Shown: positions 4,079 to 20,200 of the stretch, in pieces
Layout of the letters: the number at the start of each line of letters is the position of its first letter
How positions within the stretch are numbered: the first letter of the stretch is position 1
NCBI RefSeq assembly: GCF_029207735.1
Contig: NZ_CP104395.1
Coordinates: 186,001 to 250,000, forward strand
DNA length: 64,000 bases
Direction: 5' to 3'
Source of the DNA: Candidatus Nanohalococcus occultus
Lineage (GTDB): Archaea > Nanohalarchaeota > Nanosalinia > Nanosalinales > Nanosalinaceae
Notes under the pieces: model-generated
What the model was told of the DNA's origin: nothing
Seen by the model: the letters and a program-made list of their open reading frames with translations, nothing else
Database searches by the model: none
Made by a program: the position numbers and the translations under genes

Positions 4079-4120
4079 CAACCCGTGCCTTCAAATTCTA
4101 CCGTAATACATCGTAACATT

Positions 4121-5284
4121 ATGCGCGGTCTTTCCGACACCGAACTGGAATCGAAAAACATACTTCTCAGAACAGATCTAAACCTTCCCATAGAAGATGG
4201 AGAACCTCAGAAAACAGTCAGGTTCGAAAGATACCTCGAAACCATCGAAGAAATAAGCCAGAAAGGAGGGAAAACACTTATCATCGCACACCAAGGCCGG
4301 CCATCGCGTTCGGACTTTCTTTCGCTCGAAGATCACGCAAAAATACTTTCAGACGAACTCGGTAGAGACGTGGAGCTTGTAAAAAGCTTTTTCGGCTCCG
4401 AACTGGGCGAAGCAGTCGCATCAATGCAGGAAGGGGACGTCAAACTGCTTGAAAACATCCGGTTGCTTTCCGAAGAGCTACAGAACCTTCCGGCCGAACG
4501 ACACGCCAACGATTACTTCGTGAAAAACGCGGAAAAATACTTCGATATCTACGTAAACGATGCGTTTTCCGCCGCACACCGTTCCCACGCCTCGCTTGTC
4601 GGGTTCAACTCTCATCTCGATGACTATGCCGGCCTGGTTATGGAACGCGAACTGGAAAGCTGCCGGAAAATACGTGACGAGCTAGATTCTCCGACGCTCG
4701 TACTTGGAGGAGAAAAACCCTCTGATATTATCGGCATGCTTGAGAAAATGATAGAAGACGTTCAAAAAGTTCTCCTGGGGGGCGTTCCCGGCGAACTAGC
4801 CCTGGTGATAGAAGGAAACTCGTTGGGTGAGAAAAAACAGTGGCTTGAACAACAGGGCTTAGATGGCTCAAAAGACGAGCTAGAGACGCTTCTAGACGAA
4901 CACGGAGAGAAATTCGTTCTCCCGGAAGATGTTAGGACGGCTGACGGAAATCAGGAAGTAGGAGAGGTACCTGAGGACGCGATGATCTGGGATATCGGTG
5001 AGAAAACAGAGGAAAAATTTGCGGAAAAAATACGTGAATCGAACTCTGTGCTGATGAAAGGGCCAATGGGCGCATTCGAAGACCATCCTTCCGGTACAAA
5101 AACCGTGGTCGAAGCGATAGCGGAAAACAAAGGGTTTACGGTTCTTGGCGGCGGACACACATCTTCTCTCGTCCAGAGGTTCGATCACGACCTTGAAGAA
5201 TTTTCCCACGTCTCGATTGCCGGCGGAGCATTCGTCCGTTTCATGAGCGGGGAGAAGCTAGCGGCTGTAGAAGCCCTGAGGTAG
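4121..5284 (+). CDS. pgk: Phosphoglycerate kinase
   Basis: This 387-residue glycolytic/gluconeogenic enzyme interconverts 1,3-bisphosphoglycerate plus ADP with 3-phosphoglycerate plus ATP. Signature stretches are LRTDLNLPIEDG near the N-terminus, AHQGRPSR, the substrate-binding NDAFSAAHRSHAS, the hinge and ATP-site region VLMKGPMGAFE, and the C-terminal GGGHTSS nucleotide loop (GGGD/H-T type). The ATG at 4121 fits the family N-terminus; an upstream in-frame GTG would add an unconserved 12-residue extension. With PEP synthase at 41-44 kb it indicates a central carbon pathway able to run towards sugar. The DPANN context does not reveal the net direction. Confidence 0.95.
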   Translation: MRGLSDTELESKNILLRTDLNLPIEDGEPQKTVRFERYLETIEEISQKGGKTLIIAHQGRPSRSDFLSLEDHAKILSDELGRDVELVKSFFGSELGEAVASMQEGDVKLLENIRLLSEELQNLPAERHANDYFVKNAEKYFDIYVNDAFSAAHRSHASLVGFNSHLDDYAGLVMERELESCRKIRDELDSPTLVLGGEKPSDIIGMLEKMIEDVQKVLLGGVPGELALVIEGNSLGEKKQWLEQQGLDGSKDELETLLDEHGEKFVLPEDVRTADGNQEVGEVPEDAMIWDIGEKTEEKFAEKIRESNSVLMKGPMGAFEDHPSGTKTVVEAIAENKGFTVLGGGHTSSLVQRFDHDLEEFSHVSIAGGAFVRFMSGEKLAAVEALR

Positions 5285-5292
5285 GCGGCGAT

Positions 5293-5303
5293 AAGTTTTT
5301 AAC
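5293..5303 (+). promoter_or_regulatory. TATA-like element for the aromatic leader peptide
   Basis: AAGTTTTTAAC lies 23-33 nt upstream of the ATG at 5326. This places transcription initiation at or within a few bases of that ATG, so the leader peptide would be the first cistron of a leaderless mRNA. Confidence 0.55.
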
Positions 5304-5325
5304 GCCCTCGCCGCATTATTATTCT

Positions 5326-5397
5326 ATGCTCCAGAACCTTGTTTCAAAGGCCGCATTTGACTTTAGCCTTAGCTGGAGCTACTTTTACTGGTTCTAA
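5326..5397 (+). CDS. Candidate aromatic-rich leader peptide (23 residues)
   Basis: A short open frame (ATG 5326, TAA 5395-5397) begins MLQNLVSKAAFDF and ends WSYFYWF. Eight of 23 residues are Phe, Tyr or Trp, and six of the last seven, immediately before the stop. A TATA-like element sits at the leaderless distance before the ATG. A short inverted repeat begins at the base after the stop codon, and the next gene starts 75 nt later without a visible ribosome-binding site. Downstream in the same direction lie TrpRS (8393) and PheRS alpha/beta (10431-13500). This layout resembles bacterial amino-acid leader peptides, where ribosome stalling on regulatory codons changes downstream RNA folding. 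Function in an archaeon is inference. Alternatives are a small functional or toxic peptide, or chance. Confidence 0.55.
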   Translation: MLQNLVSKAAFDFSLSWSYFYWF

Positions 5398-5429
5398 GGG
5401 TTCGTAATTTTACGCGAACTTCTTCGAAC
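5398..5429 (+). promoter_or_regulatory. Possible alternative RNA hairpins after the leader peptide
   Basis: GGGTTCG (5398-5404) can pair with the CGAAC at 5415-5419, extended by G-T wobbles, or with a second CGAAC copy at 5425-5429. The first CGAA copy (5415-5418) can instead pair with TTCG at 5423-5426. The pairings are mutually exclusive, and a ribosome stalled on the terminal aromatic codons would cover the first segment. The stems are short (4-8 pairs) and no strong T-run follows, so translational control or mRNA exposure is more likely than intrinsic termination. No folding energy was computed. Confidence 0.35.
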
Positions 5430-5472
5430 AGGTGATTGCTATCAAGACTAACATAACTACCACGACAACGCT

Positions 5473-6627
5473 ATGCCATGGAAAACCGGTGAACAGAAGA
5501 TGATGGAGGGAGTCGACGAGCTACTCGAGCAGCGAAAAGAATCCTCGAGACAGCAAAAGGAGCAGATGATAGACGAATACTTCGACAGTCTGGGTCTGAG
5601 CGACGTCGATGCCGACTGGCTTAGTTGCGGCATGGAAGAATCCGGTATAACACAGGACGAGGACATGACGTTCCTAATACCGAGACAGCTGCCGACGGAC
5701 ACGGTAGAGCAGATCGGACTAACGGCTGTAGGCAACAGCGTTGGATCTGCGTTAACTGAAGCCGGGGAAATCGACTCATTCGAAGTTTTAGGCGTGCCTC
5801 TGACAGATAAGATGTACGGCCGGAACGCGGAGAAAAGAGGCTACGCTCTCCCAGCAGCTATCACGCCGACAGGAACACATGGAACAACGCTTGCGGATAT
5901 AAACGATGGATACGGCATCGGCTCTCATCAAACCCGCGTTAAGGAATCTCAAACCGTCGAGGAACTGTTCGGGATGGATCCGGAAATTGAGAACCTTAGA
6001 GACTTACATGACTCGAGATCAAACGGCATCGTAAACTCTAGAGGAGACTTCACAACTTTACAGCAGAGAATGCTTTCCGAGATGATAGATGAGGGTCAAA
6101 GACCGGAGTTCGTGGGCTTTGAGTACGATGACGGTAAGCTAATCGGTCTGGGACACGAACCGGAAACCGATACTTACAGCTCCTTCGATGACAGTCGTCC
6201 TCTAGAGCTTGATCCGGAAGAATTATCTGATCAGGCAATCTTGCCGCCACAGGAGAGCTATGAGAAACTTGTCTTCCCTATCGCGGCTCATCCGGACGTC
6301 GGATACATGCTGAAAGGTCTGGAAAACGAGAAGTTCAAGACCTCGGCTACCGATGAGTTTGTCGCTAGGTTCGAAGATCAGGGACTGAAGTTCCCGTTCA
6401 TCGATGCCTCAGCAGACGGCAAGTACAGTGAAGAGGTTCCGGCAACGGCGATCGAGGAACTCAATCAAACTCGTTACGGCTCGTCTTCAAGCATAGGCAC
6501 GGAAGCGATGGTTTTGAACGCCCAGCCCTCTGTGGTTGTAAAACACAAACTCGATCCTTATGAACTTGGCGAAAACTCATTTGAGGGAACGATGAGAAAC
6601 GTGGTCCATGAGGTATACGGAAAATGA
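5473..6627 (+). CDS. Conserved-looking hypothetical protein behind the leader peptide
   Basis: A 384-residue soluble, acidic protein with no signal peptide or membrane helix. The N-terminal 35 residues are charged and helical (EQRKESSRQQKEQ). The rest is mixed, with Gly-rich turns such as VGNSVGSALTEAG, PTGTHGTTLADINDGYG and a C-terminal SSSSIGTEAM segment. I do not recognise a domain or catalytic motif. It is the first long gene after the leader peptide, and its stop overlaps the next gene (M28-like peptidase) by 4 nt, so the two are translationally coupled. If the leader peptide regulates expression, this protein is its most immediate target. A role in aromatic amino-acid or peptide metabolism would be a guess. 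Confidence 0.75.
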   Translation: MPWKTGEQKMMEGVDELLEQRKESSRQQKEQMIDEYFDSLGLSDVDADWLSCGMEESGITQDEDMTFLIPRQLPTDTVEQIGLTAVGNSVGSALTEAGEIDSFEVLGVPLTDKMYGRNAEKRGYALPAAITPTGTHGTTLADINDGYGIGSHQTRVKESQTVEELFGMDPEIENLRDLHDSRSNGIVNSRGDFTTLQQRMLSEMIDEGQRPEFVGFEYDDGKLIGLGHEPETDTYSSFDDSRPLELDPEELSDQAILPPQESYEKLVFPIAAHPDVGYMLKGLENEKFKTSATDEFVARFEDQGLKFPFIDASADGKYSEEVPATAIEELNQTRYGSSSSIGTEAMVLNAQPSVVVKHKLDPYELGENSFEGTMRNVVHEVYGK

Positions 6628-7544
6628 AAGATAAAGTGGTTGAGACAGCTTCCAAGCTGGCGGATCTGGCGCCCAGGAGAGGAGGAACCGAGAGAAAAGC
6701 CGCAGAATTGATCAAAGAGAATATCTCCGAGGAACTGGTGGTCCAAGAGTACGATGTGGTCTATCCGGAGTTCAAAAACTCGGAGCTACATGTGGACGGT
6801 GAGAAAATCGAGTGTCTTCCCGGAGGGTTCAAATCCGGAGAGATCAACTCGAAAAACCTGGTTAACTCGGTTCACAACGGACAAGGAGAGGTAAGCTCGC
6901 CGGCGATCAGCTTCAACCCTCACGCAGACGGCATATCTGTCACAACCTTCTATGAGGCGCCGGTTGTTGCCATCGCACCAAGTGATGTCAGCGAGGTACT
7001 TGAGGCCGAAGAGGTCTCCGGAGAGCTGGAAGTTCAGTGGCGCTCGGGAAAGAGCCGGAATATCCTGGTTGGAAACACCGATGATCCAAGTCAGGTCGTT
7101 ATGACTCATTACGACAGTCTCTGGGGCGGTTTCATCGACAACGGGTTCTCGGTAAGCCTGTTAGTTCACCTGCTCGAGGAGATTGATCTGGAATCGACGC
7201 TGGTTGTTTTCGCAGGTTCGGAGGAGGTCAGCCAGGAATCGCCTTACCACTGCTATGGCTACCGCAGGTTCGAGGCAGAGTACTCAGACCTGCTCGAGTC
7301 CGCAGAATCGATCAAGGTCGTTGATTCGCTCGGCAGAGGCTCACAGCAGGTTATAGAAGATCCAGAGATCGTAGAGAAAGCCATTGTATTCTCACAGAAC
7401 AGGTTTATTGAGAAAACCGATCTTCTGGCCAGCAGCTACGGTGATGTACTGGATATCTATCACTCAAAACTCGATAAGAAAGAGGCTTTAACCCATTACG
7501 AGGAAGCTCTTGAACTTCTCAGAGAACAACTCTTGAAGGATTAA
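6624..7544 (+). CDS. M28-family-like zinc aminopeptidase
   Basis: A 306-residue cytoplasmic protein resembling M28 peptidases. The first zinc-ligand region MTHYDSLWGGFIDNGFS corresponds to the family's HxD ... DN pattern. VVFAGSEEVSQESP matches the catalytic Glu-Glu pair (GxEE). IYHSKLD near the C-terminus supplies the last His. The family removes N-terminal residues from peptides using two zinc ions. The N-terminal ETASKLADLAPRRGGTERKAAELI is also M28-like. The gene overlaps the preceding unknown gene by 4 nt (ATGA). Peptide breakdown would supply free amino acids to the synthetases encoded downstream (inference). Confidence 0.78.
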   Translation: MKDKVVETASKLADLAPRRGGTERKAAELIKENISEELVVQEYDVVYPEFKNSELHVDGEKIECLPGGFKSGEINSKNLVNSVHNGQGEVSSPAISFNPHADGISVTTFYEAPVVAIAPSDVSEVLEAEEVSGELEVQWRSGKSRNILVGNTDDPSQVVMTHYDSLWGGFIDNGFSVSLLVHLLEEIDLESTLVVFAGSEEVSQESPYHCYGYRRFEAEYSDLLESAESIKVVDSLGRGSQQVIEDPEIVEKAIVFSQNRFIEKTDLLASSYGDVLDIYHSKLDKKEALTHYEEALELLREQLLKD

Positions 7545-7548: not shown

Positions 7549-7574
7549 TCCTTACCTCAAATTCATTGGTATTA

Positions 7575-8354
7575 ATGAAGACAAGAAAAGTAGGAGTAGG
7601 AGACCCGGAGCTGGCTGTAGTAGGCTCCATACACGGGGATGAACCCTGTGGAAAGAAAGCGATAGAAAAATTCCTGGACAGCGAGTACGAGGTCCAGAAA
7701 CCGATCAAGTTCCTCATCGCAAACGAAAAAGCGCTTGAACAGAACAAGAGATTTCTTGAAGCGGACCTAAACCGCAGCTTCCCAGGGGATCCGGAAAGTG
7801 AAAAACATGAGGAAAGACTTGCAGCAAAGATAGTAGATGAGCTGGAAGGCTTGAAGATCTTAGATATTCACTCCACTCGCTCCCAGCCAACTCCGTATGC
7901 GGCTTTCGGAGGGATGGATGACCGGACGCTTGATGTAGTCTCCTCGGCAGGAATGAAGAAAGCATGTTATTTTCCGGAAGGATCAGGATCTCTCAACAGT
8001 GTTATATCTGGATCGGTCGTGGAAGTCGGACCGCAGGGAACGGAAACTGCTGAAAAACAGGCTTACGAAGTCTTGATCAACTTTCTGGCGGCTGAAGGCA
8101 TAATCGATGCTGACTACGAGAAGACGGATCCTCTGATCGTTGAAAAGTACGAGACCGTAAGCGGCGGCGACTGGGAGTTTAAGGCAACGAACTTCGAGAA
8201 AGTTGAGCCTGGAGAGGTTTTCGCAGAACACGGTACGACCCAGCTGACCTCGACGGAAGGTTTCTACCCTGTCTTGATGTCAACCAACGGCTACGAGCTG
8301 ATACTTGGTCACAAGGCCCGGAAACTCGGTAAAGCCTCGGAGCTACAGGATTGA
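7575..8354 (+). CDS. AstE/AspA-like succinylglutamate desuccinylase/aspartoacylase family protein
   Basis: A 259-residue M14-like zinc hydrolase. The first zinc-binding motif is GSIHGDEPCG, the substrate-binding loop is EADLNRSFPG and the second zinc ligand is in LDIHSTRSQ, as in AstE, aspartoacylase and related deacylases. Family members remove acyl groups from amino acids, but some archaeal members act on other amide substrates, so the substrate is open. The ATG at 7575 is favoured over an upstream TTG because of the TATA-like element 30 nt before it. It lies between the peptidase and TrpRS, fitting amino-acid salvage. Confidence 0.8.
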   Translation: MKTRKVGVGDPELAVVGSIHGDEPCGKKAIEKFLDSEYEVQKPIKFLIANEKALEQNKRFLEADLNRSFPGDPESEKHEERLAAKIVDELEGLKILDIHSTRSQPTPYAAFGGMDDRTLDVVSSAGMKKACYFPEGSGSLNSVISGSVVEVGPQGTETAEKQAYEVLINFLAAEGIIDADYEKTDPLIVEKYETVSGGDWEFKATNFEKVEPGEVFAEHGTTQLTSTEGFYPVLMSTNGYELILGHKARKLGKASELQD

Positions 8355-8392
8355 CCGGAGCTTATTCAAGAATAAGTGAGGAACTGGTTTCC

Positions 8393-9553
8393 ATGACTGA
8401 CAAAGAAGAGTATGAAGTAACTCCGTGGGATGTAGAGGGAAACGTTAACTACAACGAGCTGATCGAGAAATTCGGAACGGAAAGAATCGACGATGAGATC
8501 AGAGAAAAAATAATTGAGGCAGCGGGAGAAGATCACCTCTACCTCCGCAGAGACTTCATATACTCCCACAGAGACATGGATAAGATACTGGAAGATTATG
8601 AGGAAGGAGAGGACTTTTTCCTATACACCGGTATCGGACCCAGCGGAAAGATGCATATCGGCCACGTAATATCCTTTTACTTCACCAAGTGGCTGCAGAA
8701 AGCCTTCGATGTCAACGTCTACATCCAGGTAACCGACGATGAGAAACACTGGGACAGGGACATGAGCTTCGAAGAGATCGATAAAAACGCAAAACAAAAC
8801 ATCAGAGAGATCGCAGCGGTCGGCTTCGATCCGGACAAGACCTTCATCTTCCGGAACCGCGAATACATGGGTAACATGTACGATGGAGTTGTCAAGGTCG
8901 CAGGCAAGATCAACAACTCGACGGCAAGCGCCGTATTCGGCTTTGAAGGATCTACAAACATAGGAATGAACTTCTGGCCGGCCATCCAGTGTATGCCGAC
9001 CTTTTTCGAGAACAAGAGATGTTTGATACCGGCAGCTATCGATCAGGATCCGTACTGGAGAATACAGAGAGATATCGCAGAGAAACTAGGTTACTACAAG
9101 ACCGCTGCGATCCACTCAAAGTTCATACCGGCCCTTACAGGTCCTGACGGGAAGATGAGTTCATCGAAGCCTAAAACAGCTATCATGCTCGATGACTCGC
9201 CGGAAGAGATCGAGAAAAAGGTAAAGCAGAATGCTTTCTCAGGCGGCGGAACCACGCTTGAAGAACACAGAGAAAAGGGTGCGGACTTATCGGTAGATGT
9301 ATCCTATCAGTGGCTTCACAACCTGCTGTTAGAAGATGATGAACAGTTGGAGAAGATCGCAAGAGAGTACTCTTCCGGGGAGATGCTGACAGGCGAGATA
9401 AAGGAGATTCTGATCGAAGAGCTACAGGAGTTCATCGGCGCACACCAGGAACGGAAGGAAAATGCCGATGAGCTGGTTCAGCAGATGATGTACGATGGGG
9501 ATCTAGCCCAAGAAATGTGGGATAAAAAGATCGATCTAGAGCCTGGAAAATAG
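8393..9553 (+). CDS. trpS: Tryptophanyl-tRNA synthetase
   Basis: This 386-residue class I synthetase attaches Trp to tRNA-Trp. It has the archaeal/eukaryotic TrpRS N-terminus (EYEVTPWDVEG), the HIGH signature in GPSGKMHIGH, the acceptor segment DQDPYWRIQRDIA, and the KMSSS loop in GPDGKMSSSKPK. The ATG at 8393 gives the expected family start; an upstream in-frame TTG overlapping the previous stop would add 14 unconserved residues. Its position in a gene run with PheRS behind an aromatic-rich leader peptide is the main reason to suspect aromatic-amino-acid-responsive control. Confidence 0.96.
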   Translation: MTDKEEYEVTPWDVEGNVNYNELIEKFGTERIDDEIREKIIEAAGEDHLYLRRDFIYSHRDMDKILEDYEEGEDFFLYTGIGPSGKMHIGHVISFYFTKWLQKAFDVNVYIQVTDDEKHWDRDMSFEEIDKNAKQNIREIAAVGFDPDKTFIFRNREYMGNMYDGVVKVAGKINNSTASAVFGFEGSTNIGMNFWPAIQCMPTFFENKRCLIPAAIDQDPYWRIQRDIAEKLGYYKTAAIHSKFIPALTGPDGKMSSSKPKTAIMLDDSPEEIEKKVKQNAFSGGGTTLEEHREKGADLSVDVSYQWLHNLLLEDDEQLEKIAREYSSGEMLTGEIKEILIEELQEFIGAHQERKENADELVQQMMYDGDLAQEMWDKKIDLEPGK

Positions 9554-9563
9554 CTCAAAAACG

Positions 9564-9571
9564 GTTTAAAC
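9564..9571 (+). promoter_or_regulatory. TATA-like element before the SpoIIM-like gene
   Basis: GTTTAAAC is centred about 27 nt before the ATG at 9594, consistent with an internal leaderless promoter. It means the pheS-pheT part need not depend only on the upstream leader. Confidence 0.45.
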
Positions 9572-9593
9572 CACCGACGGCTGAAATATCTTT

Positions 9594-10403
9594 ATGCTAC
9601 CGGAGTTGATCCTGAGAGAGGAAAAACAAAAGAATTATCCTCTACTGTTTTCTCTTGGATTAGTGTCAGCTCTGGTAGGTATAAAACTAGCCCAGGTTCT
9701 TTTCCCCGGTAAATCGGCGTTCGCAGCGGTAATGTTTGCCGCAATCCCGATGGTCTTCCCTCTTGTAGATGTCTTCCTCAAAGACGAACGGGAAAAAGAG
9801 GCTCACAGCCCGGAGATAATGATTTACAGCGCTTTGTTCGCAGGACAGGTAATAGGTTTCTATGCTGCGTCCTTGATCGATCCATCGCTGTTCGGGATGC
9901 AGGTATCGGTCTTCGAGCTTAGACTGGTTGAGTTTGGAGTCACAGGGTATGCTACGGGCGGCCCGAGCTTTGTATCTATACTTGTAAATAATATGACTGT
10001 TTTCAGCTTCATATTTGCGGTTTCAGCGCTTATAGGATCGGCAGGAGCATTCATACTTTCCTGGAATGCGTCAGTACTCGGGGTTTTCCTGGGTGTTTTA
10101 ACCAGCGAGCTTTCGGATTTAGAGGTTTTAACCGGTGATGGAATGGTGCCGACTCCGCTGGCTTACGTTCCGCATGCTGCCTTCGAGATGGGCGGTTTCA
10201 TCGTAGCAGGTATACTTGGGACTATGATGTCCGCAGCAGTCTACAGAAGACATTTTGACCGTGATACATGGGAGGATCTGACAAAACTGTTTTTCACAGG
10301 GATTGCCATGGTTGTAACCGGGGCAGCACTCGAAATGGGGGACGTAACGGTTTTCTTCGCAGGCTTTGTCTCGGTTATAGGTCTATCGTTCTGGATGCGT
10401 TGA
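9594..10403 (+). CDS. SpoIIM (stage II sporulation M / DUF95) family membrane protein
   Basis: A 269-residue protein with about six membrane helices. The family pattern is visible as LVNNMTVFSFIFAVSAL followed by SWNASVLGVFLG and AYVPHAAFEMGGFIVAGI, equivalent to the conserved NN...NG...PHG.xEl.AG motif. Archaeal homologues are common and uncharacterised; in Bacillus SpoIIM is part of an engulfment peptidoglycan machine, which cannot be the role here. The gene sits between trpS and pheS with its own TATA-like element. A membrane-remodelling or transport role is only inference. Confidence 0.82.
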   Translation: MLPELILREEKQKNYPLLFSLGLVSALVGIKLAQVLFPGKSAFAAVMFAAIPMVFPLVDVFLKDEREKEAHSPEIMIYSALFAGQVIGFYAASLIDPSLFGMQVSVFELRLVEFGVTGYATGGPSFVSILVNNMTVFSFIFAVSALIGSAGAFILSWNASVLGVFLGVLTSELSDLEVLTGDGMVPTPLAYVPHAAFEMGGFIVAGILGTMMSAAVYRRHFDRDTWEDLTKLFFTGIAMVVTGAALEMGDVTVFFAGFVSVIGLSFWMR

Positions 10404-10430
10404 AAGTAATAAATCTGTGCTGATGAACCA

Positions 10431-11813
10431 ATGGATGTGAAACTATCCGCTCAAGCAAAACAGGTAATTGAAGAGCTGAAGTCGGGTCCAATAACAGTAT
10501 CAGAGCTGGAGGAGCTGGGCTTCGATCAGTCAATGGTTAACAGAGCCATCCTCGAACTTGAAGAAAAAGAATTGATCGAACTCGAGGAAGAAGAGGAGAT
10601 AGTACAGAAAATAACCGAGTCAGGGAAAAACGTAGCGGAAAACGGCTCACCTGAGTACAGACTGGTTGAAAAACTCAGGGAAAACCAGCCGGTAGCTATA
10701 GCCGATATCGAGAACCCGGACCTCGCAATAGGCAAAGGAAAACAGAAAAACTGGATCGACATACGGGAAGGCGAAGTATACCTGACTGAAGACGGAGAAA
10801 ACGCAGAGGACGGTGCGAGCAGAAAGCTTAACTCCGAGAACTTCGATGAAGAACTGGAGGACAGAGGATTGATCGAAACCAATATTCTGGTTGAGAAAAA
10901 GCTGATTCCAACCGAAAAACTCGAGGAACTCGATCTTGATGATATAGAACAGGAATTCGACGTCGAGGCAGATGTAAAAACTCCGCGGACAGGTAAAAGA
11001 CATTTTTACAAACACATAATGGACCAGGCACGTCAGACCTGGCTCGAGATGGGTTTCAAGGAGATGACAGGAGAGTTCGTAGTACCTAGCTTCCTGTGTT
11101 TCGATGCTCTCTACACTCCGCAGGATCACCCGGCCCGTGAGATGCAGGATACTTTCTTCATGGAAACACCGGAGAGTTCGGATCTATCCGGTTACGGAGC
11201 CAGCGTCGAGAACGTGAAAAATACGCACGAAAACGGCTGGACAACAGGAAGCACCGGCTGGGGATACGACTGGTCGATGGAAGAAGCAGAAAAAAACGTA
11301 CTAAGAACGCATACAACCGCGGTTTCGGCGAGAAAACTGAACGAGCTGGAAAAAGAGGACCTACCGGCAAAGTACTTCGATCTTTCAAGAGTCTTCAGGA
11401 ACGAAACAGTTGACAGGCACCATTTAGCCGAGTTCTACCAGACCGATGGTATCGTGGTAGGCGAGGATCTGAACTTCCGGAATCTGAAAGCCTACATCTC
11501 CGAGTTCTTTGAACGTATGGGCTTCGAGGAGTTCCGGTTGATTCCTTCCTACTATCCGTACACTGAAATGGGGGTAGAGGTACAGGTATTCGACGAGGCC
11601 GAGGAAGAATGGATAGGTCTTGGGGGCGCAGGAATGTTCCGACCGGAGGTAGTCAAGCCAATGTTAGGCTTCGAGGCAACGGTTCTGGCCTGGGGGCTTG
11701 GAATCGGAAGAATCGCGATGCGTTCAGCGGAGCTGGAAGATATCAGAGAGCTTTACAGGAACGACATCAAGCTACTGGAGCAAACACCGAAATGGAGGCC
11801 GGAAAATAAATGA
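10431..11813 (+). CDS. pheS: Phenylalanyl-tRNA synthetase alpha subunit
   Basis: The 460-residue catalytic subunit of the (alpha-beta)2 PheRS. The N-terminal 170 residues contain winged-helix modules rich in Glu that bind tRNA-Phe. The class II catalytic domain follows, with MQDTFFMETPE, RTHTTAVSAR, motif 2 around SRVFRNETVDRHHLAEFYQ, and motif 3 FEATVLAWGLGIGRIAM. It activates Phe with ATP. pheT follows after 43 nt in the same direction. An A/T-rich AGTAATAAAT about 22 nt upstream of the ATG may be a weak promoter. Confidence 0.97.
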   Translation: MDVKLSAQAKQVIEELKSGPITVSELEELGFDQSMVNRAILELEEKELIELEEEEEIVQKITESGKNVAENGSPEYRLVEKLRENQPVAIADIENPDLAIGKGKQKNWIDIREGEVYLTEDGENAEDGASRKLNSENFDEELEDRGLIETNILVEKKLIPTEKLEELDLDDIEQEFDVEADVKTPRTGKRHFYKHIMDQARQTWLEMGFKEMTGEFVVPSFLCFDALYTPQDHPAREMQDTFFMETPESSDLSGYGASVENVKNTHENGWTTGSTGWGYDWSMEEAEKNVLRTHTTAVSARKLNELEKEDLPAKYFDLSRVFRNETVDRHHLAEFYQTDGIVVGEDLNFRNLKAYISEFFERMGFEEFRLIPSYYPYTEMGVEVQVFDEAEEEWIGLGGAGMFRPEVVKPMLGFEATVLAWGLGIGRIAMRSAELEDIRELYRNDIKLLEQTPKWRPENK

Positions 11814-11856
11814 TGAAAACAGGTTTTCTTGACAACCACTTGGAGGCAAGAGGAAG

Positions 11857-13500
11857 ATGAGTCACATAGAGATAGATAAAAGAGAGTTTGAACAGTTAAT
11901 CGGACGATCAGTGTCCGAGAACGAATTAAAGGAAAAAGCATCGAACCTGGGCGCACACTGGAACCATTTAGAAGGCCCTAAATGGGACGTGGAAGTATAT
12001 CCAAACCGGCCCGATCTCTTGAGCGTGGAAGGTCTCGCAAGAGCTTACAGAGGCTTTTTCGAAGTATACACAGGGAAAGAGGAGTACGAAGCGAAAGAAC
12101 ACGAGATCAGTCTAGAAGTCGATAGCTCGGTTGAAGATGTCCGACCGTACATTGGTGGAGCGGTCATCAGAGATCTCGAGTTAACAGAGAAAAAGATCAA
12201 CGGACTGATCCAGCTACAGGAAAAACTACACGAAACAATGGGCAGAAGACGTGATAAGATCGCGATCGGTCTCCACGATCTATCGGAGCTTCAAGCGCCT
12301 TTCACTTACAAAACAGTAGAGCCTGAATCCGTCGATTTCACTCCACTGGAACACGATAAGCCGCTACATCTGGAAGATATCCTTGAAGTACACGAGAAAG
12401 GCAAAGAGTACTCTTGGATCCTTGAAGACGCTGAAAAGTATCCGATAATCGTGGATGCGAATGAGAAAGTTCTTTCCTTCCCGCCTATAATCAACAACCA
12501 GCTTACAGAGGTTCAGCCAAGTACAACCGACGTCTTCGTTGATGTAACCGGGAAAGACAGGAAAGCTGTCAGGAAAGTGCTTAATATCCTAGTTACTGCT
12601 TTAAGTGAGAGAGGCGGAGACATTGAATCTGTTGAAGTCGACGGCGAGATTATGCCAGACCTGGGTTCTGAGTCCCGGGAGCTGGATGTCGAGTACTTCA
12701 AGAAGATCTCGGGTCTGGATCTTACGGGCGAGGAGATCGTACACCGACTTGAGATGATGAAGTACGGTGCCGAACTGAGTGAAGGTGTGATCGAAGTAGA
12801 GGTTCCATGTTACAGGAACGATGTGATGCATCAGTATGACCTGATAGAAGACGTTGTAATCGCGCACGGTTACAGGGAGATCGAACCGGAGATGCCGGAA
12901 ATCGATCAGATAGGAGGCCAAGAAGCCATCGAAAAACTGACTGACACTGTAAGAGAGATCATTCAGGGTACTGGCGCTCTTGAAGCCCACAGTTTCGCGC
13001 TTTCAAGCGATGAGAAACTCTTCGAGAACATGAACATCGAGAAGGAAAAAGTCGCTCGGATGAACAACGCATTGACGAAAGATTATTCTGTTGTCCGCAA
13101 CTGGATGCTGCCATCGATGATGCAGGTTCTTGAGAGCAACAGGCATCGTAGCTATCCTCAGAAAATATTCGAAGCATCGGATACAGCGGTCCTCGATGAC
13201 TCAGATACAGGTGTATCGAACAGACGTAAACTAGCGTACGTCCACGCTGGAGAGGTGGCGGATTATACAGACGTTAAAGCAGTCTTACAGGTCCTGGAAA
13301 GAGAGCTAGGTCTAGAGCTTGAGGTAAAGTCAGCTGAGAAGGGCTGTTTCAGACAGGGTAGGGCAGGAGACATACTGGTCAAAGGTGAGAGGATAGGTAT
13401 CATCGGCGAGTTACATGATCAGGTCGTGGAAAACTGGGGTCTGGAAAATGAAGTCGCAGGCTTCGAACTGGATCTGGAAAGAATGATGGAAAATATTTGA
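11857..13500 (+). CDS. pheT: Phenylalanyl-tRNA synthetase beta subunit (archaeal type)
   Basis: The 547-residue archaeal-length beta subunit, without the bacterial EMAP-like and C-terminal anticodon extensions. Visible family segments are YPNRPDLLSVEGLARAYRG near the N-terminus, MGRRRDKIAIGLHDLS (B3/4 editing region), FPPIINNQLTEV, and the B5 and class-II-like region with YDLIEDVVIAHGYREIEPEMP. It pairs with PheS, binds tRNA and hydrolyses mischarged Tyr-tRNA-Phe. Purine-rich GGAGG and AGGAAG sequences lie just upstream of the ATG. The structured RNA begins 4 nt after its stop and could be processed from its transcript. Confidence 0.96.
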   Translation: MSHIEIDKREFEQLIGRSVSENELKEKASNLGAHWNHLEGPKWDVEVYPNRPDLLSVEGLARAYRGFFEVYTGKEEYEAKEHEISLEVDSSVEDVRPYIGGAVIRDLELTEKKINGLIQLQEKLHETMGRRRDKIAIGLHDLSELQAPFTYKTVEPESVDFTPLEHDKPLHLEDILEVHEKGKEYSWILEDAEKYPIIVDANEKVLSFPPIINNQLTEVQPSTTDVFVDVTGKDRKAVRKVLNILVTALSERGGDIESVEVDGEIMPDLGSESRELDVEYFKKISGLDLTGEEIVHRLEMMKYGAELSEGVIEVEVPCYRNDVMHQYDLIEDVVIAHGYREIEPEMPEIDQIGGQEAIEKLTDTVREIIQGTGALEAHSFALSSDEKLFENMNIEKEKVARMNNALTKDYSVVRNWMLPSMMQVLESNRHRSYPQKIFEASDTAVLDDSDTGVSNRRKLAYVHAGEVADYTDVKAVLQVLERELGLELEVKSAEKGCFRQGRAGDILVKGERIGIIGELHDQVVENWGLENEVAGFELDLERMMENI

Positions 13501-14745: not shown

Positions 14746-15180
14746 TTACCTGGTTGCGTTCAGAGTTCGGTAGTAGGTCTTCTCACATGGAAGCAGCTGG
14801 ATGTTTTCGTTTTCAAGCCATTCGTCCGCGGTTCTGTTCTCGTAGCTTACCTCTGAAGTCCATTCCATGCCGTCCATCTCTTCCGTACAGGTGTTTGTGG
14901 CTCTCAGCATTAACTCGGATTCAACCTTCCGGTAGTAGTTAGGAGTTCCTTCCTCGATCTCCGTGTAGTTATCGTAGTTGTATGTAGTATGTGTCTGGCG
15001 CTGGATCCCAATACAGGCTCCAATGTCGACTCCGGCACATCGTGTCTCGACTTCTACCATTCCAACGTTTACAGGTTCATCTGGTGTAACCACGTTGTGC
15101 GCTGCTGCGAATGATCCGGCGGTTAGAACTGATAGAGCCACTAGAATTAAACTGGTCTTTAGACTTTCCGATGCTTCCAT
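14746..15180 (-). CDS. Secreted Cys-containing hypothetical protein
   Basis: A 144-residue protein with an N-terminal signal sequence (SLILVALSVLTAGSFAAAHN), probably cleaved after the Ala-rich end. The exported part has five Cys (CAGVDIGAC, NTCTEE, LPCEK) and N-glycosylation sequons (NYT, NRT, NAT), fitting a small disulfide-containing extracellular protein. No anchor is visible at the C-terminus. A TTTAAA element (about 15205-15213) 28 nt upstream of the ATG supports the start. I do not recognise the family. Confidence 0.7.
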   Translation of the reverse strand: MEASESLKTSLILVALSVLTAGSFAAAHNVVTPDEPVNVGMVEVETRCAGVDIGACIGIQRQTHTTYNYDNYTEIEEGTPNYYRKVESELMLRATNTCTEEMDGMEWTSEVSYENRTADEWLENENIQLLPCEKTYYRTLNATR

Positions 15181-15216
15181 ACAAAACAGAGTTGTAGTGG
15201 AGTTTCTTTAAACCCG

Positions 15217-17130
15217 GTGTCAGTGGACTTAAGAAGAACGCTTCCTGATGAATTACTAGATAGAATGCAGTTAGGCACCATAGAAGGAGAAGTAGATACC
15301 TCGGCATTCAAGTTTAGAGCGGTTGAAGACGTTGGAAAGTTCGACTTCGTATCCGTCAAATCCAACGAACGCTGGATACTTGCACAGGTAGAAGAAGTAA
15401 CCAAAAAACCTGATGGGGAAACCCTCGCAGAAGCCAACATCATCGGCTACAGAGACAAAGGACTGACCAAAGCACCGCGCCAGGTCATCGAACCAGACTC
15501 TATAGTATACGAGGCCGACCAGGAACTGATCGCAGAAACACTTGGTTTAGAGGACGCAGGACTGGGAATCGGAAACCTAGAGACCAACCCTGACATCGAT
15601 ATCTTCGTGGATGAAAGCGATTTCTACAAGCACTTTGCGGTCCTAGCACAGACAGGAGCAGGTAAATCATACTTAACAGGTGTACTAACCGAGGAACTGC
15701 TTGAACAGGAGTTTCCGATACTTATACTTGATCCTCACGGCGAGTACTCTTCGCTTGAAATCCCGAACCCTGAACGAAGCGAAGGAGCAAAAGGATACGA
15801 CGTCAGAGAGTTTTCCCCAAACACGGATGTAAACAGCGAGGCAATGCCTCTACGTTTCTCATCGGTTAACATGGAGAAAAAAGAGCTGCTCGAAGTCATA
15901 CCGGATTCTCTAACCAACTCACAGATGGGCGTACTCTACAACGCCTTGAAACGGCTGAGAGAGAAAGGAGATGACTACACATTAAACGATATCATGGATG
16001 CGGTCTCACAGGAGGATTCGACCGCTAAATGGAATCTCTTGAACTCCATGGAACAGATTGAGGAAAGCGGGCTTTTCTCCGAGACTCCTACGAACCTCAA
16101 AGACTTGCTTGAACCGGGAAGAGCCACTATAATCAACTTGAAAGCTGTTGAGCCTGAGGCAACTGAGATGACGGCTTACTTGCTTGCGAAAAGACTTTTC
16201 GATCTCCGTAAGCGGGATAGGGTTCCGCCGTTTGTCATGCTGATGGAGGAGGCTCATAACTTCGCTCCTGAACAGGGATTCGGTAAGGCGCTTTCAAGCG
16301 AGATTTTACGTAAGATTGCCTCGGAGGGACGTAAGTTCGGGCTTGGAATCGGAGTTGTGTCTCAGCGACCGGCCCGGATCGATAAAAACGTCTTATCACA
16401 GTGTAACACGCAGTTCATACTACGTGTATCGAACCCTAACGACATTAAAGCAATCTCGAAGTCTTTCGAAGGAGTGACTTCGGAGGTCGAGTCAATGATT
16501 ACATCTCTGCCGCCCGGAGTCTGTTTCGTTCTAGGAAACGAGTATCCGGTCATGACACAGGTACGTCAGAGGTACTCGAAGCACGGCGGTACAACTCAGA
16601 CAGCTGAAGACTACGAGCAGAAAATCACTGTGGACTGTTACCTGCCTCAGGAAGATATCGATACGGTCAGACAGAAACGTGACGGAGATTACACGATTGC
16701 CTACTATCCTCTCTACCATCTTGAAACGGATGATGTTGAAATCCTGGTTGACGGGGTTGAAGGCGATGTTAAAGCTGAGAGAAAGAAGCCTTCGGGTCTG
16801 GAAAAACAGGTGTTGGAAAAGCTACGGAACGGCTTGGAAAAATCCGAGATCGTAAACGAGATCGATATGACCTTAACCAAGATGTCTTCCATCCAGGAAA
16901 GTCTGGTTGAGAAGGGCTTGGTTCATGAAGACCGATTTGAGCCGAAGGAATCGGTTCTAGACGTCGATCTGGTCGAACGTGATGCGACAGAACCGGAGCT
17001 TATAGACTACAAGATCGATGAGAAAACAGCGAGAAACCATCTTGAAGGCGCTAAGGTTAGAAAGCTTCGTTATCCTTACTATTCGAGCGGTGATTCAGTT
17101 TATGACCCTATACTGAACAAACAGCTCTGA
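15217..17130 (+). CDS. HerA-like hexameric DNA-pumping ATPase (DUF87/HAS-barrel)
   Basis: A 637-residue ATPase of the HerA/FtsK superfamily. An N-terminal HAS-barrel-like region (LGTIEGEVDTSAFKF) is followed by Walker A AQTGAGKS (residues 144-151), ILDPHGEYSS, Walker B VMLMEEAHNF (about 343), and the sensor/arginine-finger region GVVSQRPARIDKNVLSQCNTQ, all typical of HerA. HerA proteins work with the NurA nuclease in end resection; no nurA is next to this gene. The C-terminal 200 residues carry an extra helical, winged-helix-like part (EKQVLEKLRNGLEKSEIVNEI). The listed start is GTG; an internal ATG at 15265 (MQLGTIEGE) is equally likely because the barrel begins there and the upstream TTTAAA belongs to the divergent gene. 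Unlike the HerA-like gene at 60-63 kb, it has no intein. Confidence 0.9.
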   Translation: MSVDLRRTLPDELLDRMQLGTIEGEVDTSAFKFRAVEDVGKFDFVSVKSNERWILAQVEEVTKKPDGETLAEANIIGYRDKGLTKAPRQVIEPDSIVYEADQELIAETLGLEDAGLGIGNLETNPDIDIFVDESDFYKHFAVLAQTGAGKSYLTGVLTEELLEQEFPILILDPHGEYSSLEIPNPERSEGAKGYDVREFSPNTDVNSEAMPLRFSSVNMEKKELLEVIPDSLTNSQMGVLYNALKRLREKGDDYTLNDIMDAVSQEDSTAKWNLLNSMEQIEESGLFSETPTNLKDLLEPGRATIINLKAVEPEATEMTAYLLAKRLFDLRKRDRVPPFVMLMEEAHNFAPEQGFGKALSSEILRKIASEGRKFGLGIGVVSQRPARIDKNVLSQCNTQFILRVSNPNDIKAISKSFEGVTSEVESMITSLPPGVCFVLGNEYPVMTQVRQRYSKHGGTTQTAEDYEQKITVDCYLPQEDIDTVRQKRDGDYTIAYYPLYHLETDDVEILVDGVEGDVKAERKKPSGLEKQVLEKLRNGLEKSEIVNEIDMTLTKMSSIQESLVEKGLVHEDRFEPKESVLDVDLVERDATEPELIDYKIDEKTARNHLEGAKVRKLRYPYYSSGDSVYDPILNKQL

Positions 17131-17177: not shown

Positions 17178-17322
17178 GGGTTCATGGTCTAGTTGGTTAT
17201 GACGTCGCCCTTACAGCCATTTTCAGGTATGTGAGAGATAGGTTTTCGACCTATCCGGAGGATCGCAGCCTGATCGTTGGCAGGCTAGGCGAAGATCCCC
17301 AGTTCGAATCTGGGTGAACCCA
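17178..17322 (+). tRNA. tRNA-Val (anticodon UAC) with intron
   Basis: The acceptor stem GGGTTCA pairs with TGAACCC, the D-arm is GTCTAGTTGGTTATGAC, the anticodon stem TCGCC (17205-17209) pairs with GGCGA (17288-17292), and the T-arm CCCAG-TTCGAAT-CTGGG is canonical. The anticodon loop contains TAC at 17212-17214, giving tRNA-Val. A 71-nt intron separates position 37 from 38. The discriminator A is at 17322 and CCA is not encoded. Confidence 0.93.
17216..17286 (+). other. tRNA-Val intron (71 nt)
   Basis: The intron is inserted after tRNA position 37, the canonical archaeal site. Near the exon junctions AGCC (17215-17218) and GGCT (17283-17286) can form the central helix of a bulge-helix-bulge substrate for the tRNA splicing endonuclease. 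Inside is a perfect 7-bp hairpin, GATAGGT/ACCTATC, with a TTTCG loop. No open frame or C/D guide is evident in it. Confidence 0.85.
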
Positions 17323-17792: not shown

Positions 17793-18947
17793 ATGATGGA
17801 ACAAATGGACTGGGAGTATTACACTGGAAAACCGGGTATTGGCGGAGAGCTTAAAGAACAGGTCGATGACTTCGTCGTCCAAGAGCTTTCGAACCACGAG
17901 CTGGACGAAGACGGCGATCACCTGATAGTCCAGCTCCGCAAACAGAACATGACTACGATGGATGCGGTCAATACCCTTTCTAACATGCTACATATCTCGA
18001 AGGACAGGATCGGTTACGCAGGCAACAAGGACAAGAGAGCTATAACCGAACAGTACATCTCAATTCAGGGTGTATCGGAGGAAGACGTTCGGCAGATCTT
18101 CACCGACGAGTTCGAACTCGAGGTTGTCGGTAAAAACGGATACATAGGACTAGGGAACCTGGAGGCAAACAGGTTCGAAATAACTATAAGAGATCTTAAC
18201 CTTCCGCAAGATGATATCAAGCGGAGAACGGAGAGCATTGTAGAGGATCTCGACGGTAAGTTCCCGAATTACTTTGGACGGCAGCGTTTCGGAAGCTCCC
18301 GTCCTATAACACATCAGGTCGGCCGGCTAATTCTGAAAGGAGAGTTTGAAGAAGCTGTCTGGACTTATATCGCAAAACCTTACGACCAAGAATACTCTTC
18401 AATCCGGAAGGTCAGAGAGGAGCTTTGGGACACAAGGCAGGTAGAAGACGCCGCCGAAAAGTTCCCAAAACAGTACCGGTACGAGAAAGCACTTCTTTAC
18501 CACCTGACGAAGAACCCGGAGGATTACAAGGGTGCGATCAAGAGACTGCCTGAAGGACTTCAGCAGCTTTTCATTCATGCCTACCAGTCATGGGTTTTCA
18601 ACCGCGCGCTTTCCAAACTTCTGGAAGACGACTGGTACGATGAAAAGTACGAAATCCCGCTGGTAGGGTACAAAACCGATCTGAAGGACAACAAGCCGGA
18701 AAACATAATCAAAGAAGTTCTCGAACAGGAAGGAGTATCTCAGGAGGACTTCCGGCTTCAAGAGATGCCGGAGCTTAGAAGCGAAGGTAGTTACCGAAGA
18801 GCTTTCGGAGACTTCAGGAAGTTCAGTGTCTTGGAAACCGATGAAGACGATCTGAACATGTCGAAGAACAAGGAACGCGTCAAGTTCGATCTTCCGAAAG
18901 GATCATACGCCACGGTAATGCTCCGTGAGATAATGAAGAACAACTGA
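17793..18947 (+). CDS. truD: tRNA pseudouridine(13) synthase TruD
   Basis: A 384-residue pseudouridine synthase that converts U13 in tRNA (and the equivalent tRNA-Tyr site in some archaea). The catalytic Asp is in GYAGNKDKRAITEQ (near residue 80). Other TruD segments are EQVDDFVVQEL, FPNYFGRQRFGSSRPITHQVG, and a C-terminal QRSYRRAFG-type region here reading GSYRRAFGDFRKF. The start codon immediately follows the pth2 stop. GT2 follows 17 nt later in the same direction. Confidence 0.95.
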   Translation: MMEQMDWEYYTGKPGIGGELKEQVDDFVVQELSNHELDEDGDHLIVQLRKQNMTTMDAVNTLSNMLHISKDRIGYAGNKDKRAITEQYISIQGVSEEDVRQIFTDEFELEVVGKNGYIGLGNLEANRFEITIRDLNLPQDDIKRRTESIVEDLDGKFPNYFGRQRFGSSRPITHQVGRLILKGEFEEAVWTYIAKPYDQEYSSIRKVREELWDTRQVEDAAEKFPKQYRYEKALLYHLTKNPEDYKGAIKRLPEGLQQLFIHAYQSWVFNRALSKLLEDDWYDEKYEIPLVGYKTDLKDNKPENIIKEVLEQEGVSQEDFRLQEMPELRSEGSYRRAFGDFRKFSVLETDEDDLNMSKNKERVKFDLPKGSYATVMLREIMKNN

Positions 18948-18964
18948 ACGGAGTTACGGAGAGA

Positions 18965-20200
18965 ATGGGACTTCTTACTTTGACGCTGGCGTTCGCACTG
19001 ATAGGTTCTTCAGTGTTTTTCGCCGCCTTCTACATCAGCGTTTTCCTGAATGATGAATCCAAGTACTCGGAAACAGTTTCTCTAGACAGTTATCCCAAGC
19101 TGACTATCGTCATGCCGGCTTTCAACGAGGAAGGAGTTGTCAGGACAAGTCTTTCCGCTGTACAGAACCTTGATTATCCTAACTACGAGGTTAAGTTCGT
19201 TGACGATGGTTCAACAGATGGCACACTTGAGATAGCCAAAGAAATGATCGATGAATCAATAACAGAGATTATCGAAAGCTCTGAGAACGAAGGTAAAGCA
19301 GCTGCGCTCAACAAAGGTCTTGATTCGACTGATTCGGAATACATGGTGGTGGTGGATGCTGATTCAAAGGTAGATGGCCCATTACTGAAGGAAGCAGTAG
19401 AGACAATCGAGGTTGATTCTAACATTGGCGCAGTGATATCTGCGATAATGCCTCTTAACAGCAATACCTTGGTTCGACGGCTCCAGGTCGTAGAGTACCG
19501 TTTAAGGGATTTCTACAGGAATCTGATGGCTGATGTGCAGATCCTTGATGTGACTCCTGGTGCTTTCTCAATGTATAGAACCCGTGATCTAAACGATATA
19601 GGAGGTTTCGACGTCGGAAACCTGACAGAAGACCTTGAAATGGCATGGAGTCTACGTAAACACGGCAGAGATATTGAAATGGTTAGAAAAAAACGTTCTT
19701 ACACAGAGCTTCCTGGAACTTTGAAAGGGCTACATAATCAGAGGGTTAGATGGGCCAGAGGCCACATACAGAATCTCTTCAAGCACAAGGATATGTTTTT
19801 CAACAGTCGGTATGGCTGGTTCGGACTTTTCCATATGCCAGCTACCACGATGTTCGCAGGATTTTCCATCCTCGGATTCGTCATGGTTTTATGGGGTCTC
19901 GGCGAACAGGCCTACAACTTATTTATCACGTTCTCGTCTGTAGGTTTCAAAATGCCGAGCCTTGAGTTCAGTTTGGTTAGATGGCTTCTGGCGCTGGACA
20001 TGAAAGTTTACGTGCCTCTAGCCTCCAGTCTAGGTCTGACAGCGTATATAATGACTAAGGCATACCAAGGATTCGGTGAAGATGTCAAACACCCGGTTGC
20101 ATTGGCTGTTTACTTTTTCGGTTACTTCATGATTAAACCGGTCTTTTGGATTTCGGCTATTTTAAAAGAGCTGCTACGGACTAAAAGAACATGGACCTAG
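18965..20200 (+). CDS. Membrane-bound family 2 glycosyltransferase
   Basis: A 411-residue protein with one N-terminal helix, a GT-A domain and about three C-terminal membrane helices, as in processive or NAG-type transferases. Motifs: LTIVMPAFNEE, DDGSTDGT (80-87), metal-binding VVVDADSK (DxD, 131-133), LTEDLEMAW and QRVRWARGH (QxxRW, near 258). QxxRW with TED suggests a polymerising inverting enzyme on the cytoplasmic face. Its product could be an extracellular polysaccharide or glycan for the surface proteins encoded downstream (inference). GGAG lies 7 nt before the ATG. The 3' end overlaps the next gene by 10 nt. Confidence 0.92.
   Translation: MGLLTLTLAFALIGSSVFFAAFYISVFLNDESKYSETVSLDSYPKLTIVMPAFNEEGVVRTSLSAVQNLDYPNYEVKFVDDGSTDGTLEIAKEMIDESITEIIESSENEGKAAALNKGLDSTDSEYMVVVDADSKVDGPLLKEAVETIEVDSNIGAVISAIMPLNSNTLVRRLQVVEYRLRDFYRNLMADVQILDVTPGAFSMYRTRDLNDIGGFDVGNLTEDLEMAWSLRKHGRDIEMVRKKRSYTELPGTLKGLHNQRVRWARGHIQNLFKHKDMFFNSRYGWFGLFHMPATTMFAGFSILGFVMVLWGLGEQAYNLFITFSSVGFKMPSLEFSLVRWLLALDMKVYVPLASSLGLTAYIMTKAYQGFGEDVKHPVALAVYFFGYFMIKPVFWISAILKELLRTKRTWT

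Follow-up and report, generated by a model that had tools for sequence, protein, structure and literature searches.

A conserved short frame with an aromatic end ahead of a gene pair in nanohaloarchaea: a candidate leaderless Phe/aromatic leader peptide

A short open reading frame (ORF) upstream of a gene pair in Candidatus Nanohalococcus occultus SVXNc was found to end in a run of aromatic codons and to recur in two relatives of other genera. The conserved frame, its aromatic end, the spacing from its promoter element and a hairpin directly behind its stop codon are direct observations, and we consider it very likely that the frame is a conserved, translated leader. The best explanation for the arrangement as a whole, to which we give a probability of roughly 0.45, is that stalling of ribosomes at Phe and other aromatic codons controls the downstream operon, which includes a gene without assigned function (the 5500 gene) and a gene for an M28-like peptidase (the 6624 gene). 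With somewhat less than even odds, this would be the first archaeal case of amino-acid leader-peptide attenuation, in which the speed of translation of a leaderless Phe/aromatic leader sets the expression of an operon. If this is true, it would suggest that host-dependent archaea sense amino-acid supply via translation itself; nanosized DPANN symbionts of this kind have reportedly lost almost all of their amino-acid biosynthesis. SVXNc is a DPANN ectosymbiont of haloarchaea with a chromosome of 948,351 bp (47.4% GC), its capacity for amino-acid synthesis is very limited, and a permease is thought to import aromatic amino acids (PMC10266531). SVXNc is in culture and its RNA-seq data have been published (PMC11001535), so that a conserved leaderless leader in this symbiont would open the question to direct testing. 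The window that was analyzed is a stretch of 64,000 nucleotides (contig NZ_CP104395.1, positions 186,001 to 250,000), to which all coordinates refer unless a locus label precedes them. The features are listed in Table 1.

Table 1. Positions of the leader frame, its RNA elements and the neighboring genes in the window
Feature	Positions	Strand	Remarks
BRE/TATA-like promoter element (CGATAAGTTTTTAAC)	5289-5303	+	Box at about -32 to -25 relative to the leader ATG; spacing common to both relatives
Leader ORF, presumably leaderless, 23 codons, MLQNLVSKAAFDFSLSWSYFYWF, stop TAA	5326-5397	+	Counterparts at L002:1220-1306 and L003:1254-1340; aromatic end unique in the genome
Hairpin I, GCTCCAG (5328-5334) with CTGGAGC (5373-5379)	5328-5379	+	5' end at nt 3 of the putative transcript
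Aromatic codon run, final eight codons (SWSYFYWF)	5371-5394	+	Aromatic count above nucleotide shuffles, three species pooled (p<5e-5)
Possible long helix between TTACTGGTTC in the leader codons (5385-5394) and GAACAGGTGA (5426-5435)	5385-5435	+	Would bury the SD-like AGGTG
Hairpin II, GGGTTCGT (5398-5405) with GCGAACTT (5414-5421)	5398-5421	+	Directly 3' of the stop codon
SD-like element AACAGGTGATT	5427-5437	+	AACAGGTG identical in all three species
Second short frame (ORF2-like)	5432-5503	+	Its TGA and the ATG at 5500 share bases (ATGA), an overlap also present in J07AB43
Gene without assigned function (earlier called the 5473 gene)	5500-6627	+	Probable start at 5500, behind a GGTGA 7 nt before it
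M28-like peptidase gene	6624-7544	+	THYDS...DNG...EE motifs; found only alongside the 5500 gene, in 3 of 28 genomes
AstE/AspA-like deacylase gene, ancestral trpS neighbor	7566-8354	+	PF24827, E=3.5e-16; directly follows PGK in relatives that lack the leader
trpS, spoIIM-like, pheS and pheT genes	8351-13500	+	Same-strand run; control by the leader would be possible

The leader opens with an ATG at 5326, closes with a TAA at 5395 to 5397 and ends in WSYFYWF, in which six of seven residues are aromatic. A census of the whole 948-kb genome yielded 1,507 intergenic mini-ORFs upstream of a gene, among which the leader was the sole frame with at least five aromatic residues in the last seven positions (six, with four in the runner-up). 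A TATA-like box (5294 to 5303) lies about 28 nt 5' of the leader ATG, a distance that in archaea corresponds to a transcript beginning at the start codon. The combination of an ATG with a full AT box at this leaderless distance was found in 22 mini-ORFs, all of which, apart from the leader, had two or fewer aromatic residues in the last seven. AT boxes at a matching distance from the ATG were present in Candidatus Nanosalina sp. J07AB43 (CGAAAGCTAAAAAA) and Nanohaloarchaea archaeon SG9 (CGAAAGTTAAAAAA). An earlier note on this DNA had described both a 23-codon frame with a WSYFYWF end and a TATA-like element at the leaderless distance; both were borne out by the sequence.

The comparison set comprised 28 genomes of the order, and a search of the phylum took in those 28 again. 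Members of the 5500-gene family were found in two of these genomes besides SVXNc, namely, SG9 and J07AB43; the family search returned two loci from genome contigs and none from viral contigs. The 5500-gene orthologue lies directly 3' of the phosphoglycerate kinase (PGK) gene in all three species, and the gap between the two genes holds a short frame, MVARGLHNSENTLKALGFSDSFFYNFMF in SG9 and MVAPERSMDFRISTAFWFSGSYFSSFTF in J07AB43. Both of these leaders have 28 codons, with the aromatic ends AFWFSGSYFSSFTF and ALGFSDSFFYNFMF directly before the stop codon, and each is followed by a hairpin next to the stop codon and then by AACAGGTG. The frame and its aromatic end, whose conservation in relatives the earlier note had left to be checked, recur in both species.

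The comparative case rests on three sequences. When the last 14 residues of the leaders were anchored at the stop codon, five columns were invariant (A-14, F-11, S-10, S-8 and F-1) and four were all aromatic, a degree of column conservation that was reached in 0.015% of permutations of codon order (p=1.5e-4). Synonymous third-base variation was detected in the conserved columns (GCA/GCT/GCC and TTT/TTC/TTT), and the alternative reading frames of the leader tail contain stops. The N-terminal part was unconserved, with a length of 23 versus 28 residues and an identity of 37 to 44% over the first nine codons; a variable N-terminal part with a conserved stop-proximal end is the usual pattern for leader peptides. 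The match score between the SVXNc and SG9 leaders was 24, relative to a 99.9% quantile of 20 and a maximum of 25 for 4,805 mismatched pairs. A few orthologous mini-ORF pairs outscored the leader, among them a pair immediately 5' of rpoA2 and another preceding an rpoB gene; the TATA spacing was absent from all of these. A profile search of the 28 genomes detected only the three leaders, the next matches having E values of at least 0.02 and lying, where examined, antisense to or inside genes; searches with the pattern TAAGRRG...AACAGGTG gave matches at about the level of a reversed control. As a separate observation, a 20-codon, SD-led frame, MTKFNNTEFLAFEKTQGVFE, located immediately 5' of rpoA2 and overlapping it (Rpb1 domain 5; L128:11650-11712 on the minus strand and L215:11283-11345 in SG9) was strongly conserved between SVXNc and SG9.

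Short frames are common, as the 1,507 intergenic mini-ORFs demonstrate, and a meaningless one could be present by chance. Such an origin is extremely improbable because the leader is unique in its genome, is conserved in three genera, exhibits synonymous changes and has kept its hairpin at the same place, and the comparison with SG9 and J07AB43 has largely refuted it already. A functional small protein in place of a leader would account for the conserved C-terminal residues but not for an N-terminal part that varies in sequence and length; no homologue was found elsewhere in the order (28 genomes), and we regard a small protein as very unlikely.

A U-rich linker alone would read as Phe, Ser and Tyr, and the bases of the last eight codons were therefore shuffled. 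Aromatic codons were observed 15 times in these codons of the three species, compared with an expectation of 5.3, and none of 20,000 base shuffles attained this number, which ruled out a linker that was only U rich. The last 14 codons of the three leaders contained eight, seven and six aromatic codons. Phe was present 4, 5 and 5 times in the three tails and Trp 2, 1 and 0 times, there being no Trp codon in the SG9 leader. The suggestion that terminal Trp, Tyr and Phe codons would be conserved held for the aromatic character of the end but not for Trp, which is absent from SG9; Phe is the shared residue. If any amino acid is sensed, Phe would be the best candidate, since Phe alone is abundant in all three tails.

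The same conservation could stem from an arrest peptide, with the nascent chain (F-S-x-S-aromatic ... F-stop) stalling the ribosome at or near the stop codon, perhaps in response to a small molecule (for instance, an aromatic amino acid in free form) in the manner of TnaC and not to a lack of charged tRNA. The leader resembles TnaC-type peptides in its shortness, its conserved residues and a presumed action near the stop codon. The fixed residues and the stop-adjacent Phe are more position specific than a starvation sensor requires, and a hydrolase is encoded among the downstream genes. Against this, F, Y and W replace one another in several columns, RNA pairing in hairpin I accounts for at least part of the AGC...AGC identity, the SG9 copy lacks Trp, and no known arrest motif was recognized; overall, we consider an arrest peptide unlikely.

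Hairpin I was weak in SVXNc (z, -0.8), while its counterparts, which begin at nt 4 in both relatives, had z values of -2.8 and -2.9; its 3' end lies just ahead of the aromatic run. For hairpin II, the z value was -2.0 in SVXNc and -4.4 and -5.0 in the relatives, and the arms are wholly different yet paired in the three species (GGGTTCGT/GCGAACTT, GAAGTGAAC/GTTCACTTC and AAGCAGACC/GGTTTGCTT). Two further statements of the earlier note agreed with the sequences: GGGTTCG (5398 to 5404) can pair with CGAAC at either 5415 to 5419 or 5425 to 5429, and a strong T-run is absent after the hairpins. No T-run followed hairpin II in any of the three species, and a scan of the + strand for terminators found none there.

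Recurrence of both hairpins with dissimilar paired arms, together with AGC codons kept at the level of the bases, would suit a noncoding, structured cis-regulatory RNA, such as a riboswitch or a protein-binding element, whose U-rich linker reads as aromatic codons by accident. This is rather improbable, as the aromatic codons outnumber those in shuffles of the same bases, the ATG and TAA positions are common to all three species while other frames of the tail carry stops, and an Rfam search of positions 5250 to 5560 gave no family match even at the relaxed threshold of E up to 5.

In the folding of SVXNc, the helix between the leader codons and the SD-like element had nine pairs with pair probabilities of 0.85 to 1.0. 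Because the codons at 5385 to 5394 pair with GAACAGGTGA in this species, a ribosome positioned on them would expose the SD-like element. The helix was not present in the folding of SG9 or J07AB43, in which a local CAC/GTG hairpin covers the element. When ribosome footprints were forced in a simple folding model, the accessibility of the SVXNc element, 0.23 at the outset, rose to no more than 0.5, and no clear pattern of accessibility was observed for SG9 or J07AB43. Alternative partners for mutually exclusive hairpins are present in the SVXNc sequence, and the modelled switching between them was weak. The folding results lend a switch weak support, and in SVXNc alone; switching of the SD-like element by a stalled ribosome as a demonstrated event was dropped, since it was weak or absent in the model.

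In bacteria, control of genes through ribosomes that slow down while translating a short leader is textbook knowledge. In the mechanism proposed here, a leaderless mRNA would start at or near 5326 and open with the short leader ORF. A shortage of charged tRNA for Phe, and for other aromatic amino acids, would slow the translating ribosome on the terminal aromatic codons, and the slowed ribosome would change the fold behind the stop codon, in which hairpin II forms and the SD-like AACAGGTG element is covered. The altered fold would then alter translation of the 5500 and 6624 genes and perhaps of genes beyond, and the response would serve to acquire aromatic amino acids or to economize on them. 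We infer translation of the frame, stalling of ribosomes on it, the direction of the control and an output at the level of translation rather than transcription. Because the helix is unconserved and the modelled change in SD accessibility is small, translational control based on stalling is put forward as the best available reading only. The leader might also be translated merely to load ribosomes onto a leaderless mRNA for reinitiation at ORF2 or at 5500, with an aromatic end that senses nothing. Leaderless spacing, the SD-like element and the ATGA overlap would all be consistent with this, and reinitiation from leader ORFs is described for bacteria (PMC4833913). Loading would leave unexplained both the retention of aromatic codons and a hairpin immediately behind the stop codon, and we hold it to be fairly improbable.

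Phe leader peptides of enterobacteria are pheL, of pheA, and pheM, of pheST. The nanohaloarchaeal leader has in common with these a short ORF, a run of Phe/aromatic codons near the stop codon, an RNA hairpin after it and, in two of the three species, an operon with aminoacyl-tRNA synthetase genes downstream. It differs in that it has no U-run terminator, is presumably leaderless and is archaeal, and in that the constant genes encode an unassigned protein and an M28-like peptidase rather than PheRS. In the LEU element upstream of actinobacterial leuA, the Leu run of the leader pairs with the Shine-Dalgarno sequence of the next gene (PMC1262725). A regulatory codon run able to pair with an SD element, with no need for a terminator, is shared with this system, whereas codon-SD pairing is present here in SVXNc only and not in SG9 or J07AB43. 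Corynebacterium glutamicum has an ilvB leader peptide without a ribosome binding site and an aroF leader with Phe-Tyr-Phe, and the novelty that the earlier note saw in a leaderless leader peptide therefore does not hold in general (PMC4046766). Regulatory codons, the lack of a ribosome binding site (ilvB) and aromatic residues (aroF) are points of likeness to these leaders, which differ in being bacterial and in belonging to operons of a kind for which classical terminator attenuation is described. No archaeal case of an amino-acid leader peptide was found in the open-access literature, a coverage outside which most subscription journals lie; an excerpt of PMC10219788 states broadly that uORFs are active in archaea as well and gives no amino-acid example. 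Aromatic leaders and leaderless ones are already known in bacteria, and there is a realistic chance that the present one is the first of its domain.

In SG9 and J07AB43, AACAGGTG is followed by the ATG of ORF2, and in SVXNc it is followed by ATC; the ORF2-like frame of SVXNc is apparently degraded at its start. The start of the downstream gene, placed at 5473 by the earlier note, is probably at 5500, because the ATGA overlap is kept, this ATG has its own GGTGA and the product starting there aligns with both orthologues (MIRTASEF and MIGTAPEF). The product matched nothing in Pfam or NCBIfam, and the PDB held no convincing relative; a PDB match to KstR2 (E=0.016) was treated as chance, and an AlphaFold prediction made with three sequences was uninformative (pLDDT, 35). 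The SG9 copy of the 6624 product matched PF04389 with an E value of 0.027, which is below the cut-off, and as the 5500 gene has no known function, the proposed link to aromatic amino acids draws on this below-threshold peptidase match. Comparison of the region from PGK to the peptidase gene (window positions 4085 to 7544, L064 and L065) detected the highest similarity between SVXNc and SG9 for PGK (65%) and between SG9 and J07AB43 for the 5500 gene (67%, versus 45 to 46%). As the closest species pair differs between these two genes, the leader cassette may have a history different from that of its neighbors.

A connection of the leader with the TrpRS and PheRS genes further downstream, which had been the original interpretation, did not hold, and the leader was seen to track the 5500/6624 pair. 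TrpRS was present in every one of the 28 genomes and PheRS alpha in all but one of them, while the leader was found only with the pair, in three genomes. In those genomes without the pair that were examined closely, PGK is followed after 20 to 63 nt by AspA or TrpRS, and no counterpart of the leader was found upstream of trpS in relatives lacking the pair. Both synthetases lie in the same-strand run of the leader in SVXNc and J07AB43. In SG9, TrpRS and PheRS are kept apart by other genes, including one on the opposite strand, PheRS is outside the run, and the 5500/6624 pair is followed by 357 nt of intergenic DNA before the next gene. The leader as an element of TrpRS/PheRS was rejected, since relatives have both synthetases without it. 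The near-universal presence of the synthetases without the leader, and the separation and gap in SG9, argue for the leader belonging to the 5500/6624 pair. An effect of the leader on the SVXNc synthetase genes is possible, though the comparison gives no indication of one.

Several minor observations were made in these regions. Two very different types of TrpRS occur in the order, with 66 to 82% or 36 to 44% identity to that of SVXNc (8351 to 9553; L005-L033), and because these dissimilar types are often near PheRS, replacement of trpS in place is suggested. The PGK, trpS and pheT genes of J07AB43 are each split into two frames (L065:8480-9651, 15023-16181 and 18357-20005), perhaps as a result of sequencing errors in a metagenome assembly. 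In SG9, the 357 nt that follow the M28-like gene contain another short, leaderless-looking frame (MAQKGGYFWKNLSRKENVDRATGLKA; L064:12118-12198), which has YFW near its beginning and is preceded by a TTTTAAAT box. Finally, a tRNA gene at positions 17178 to 17322 (Rfam RF00005, 53.5 bits), which was missed by ARAGORN at default settings, is interrupted close to its anticodon by an insertion of some 72 nt.
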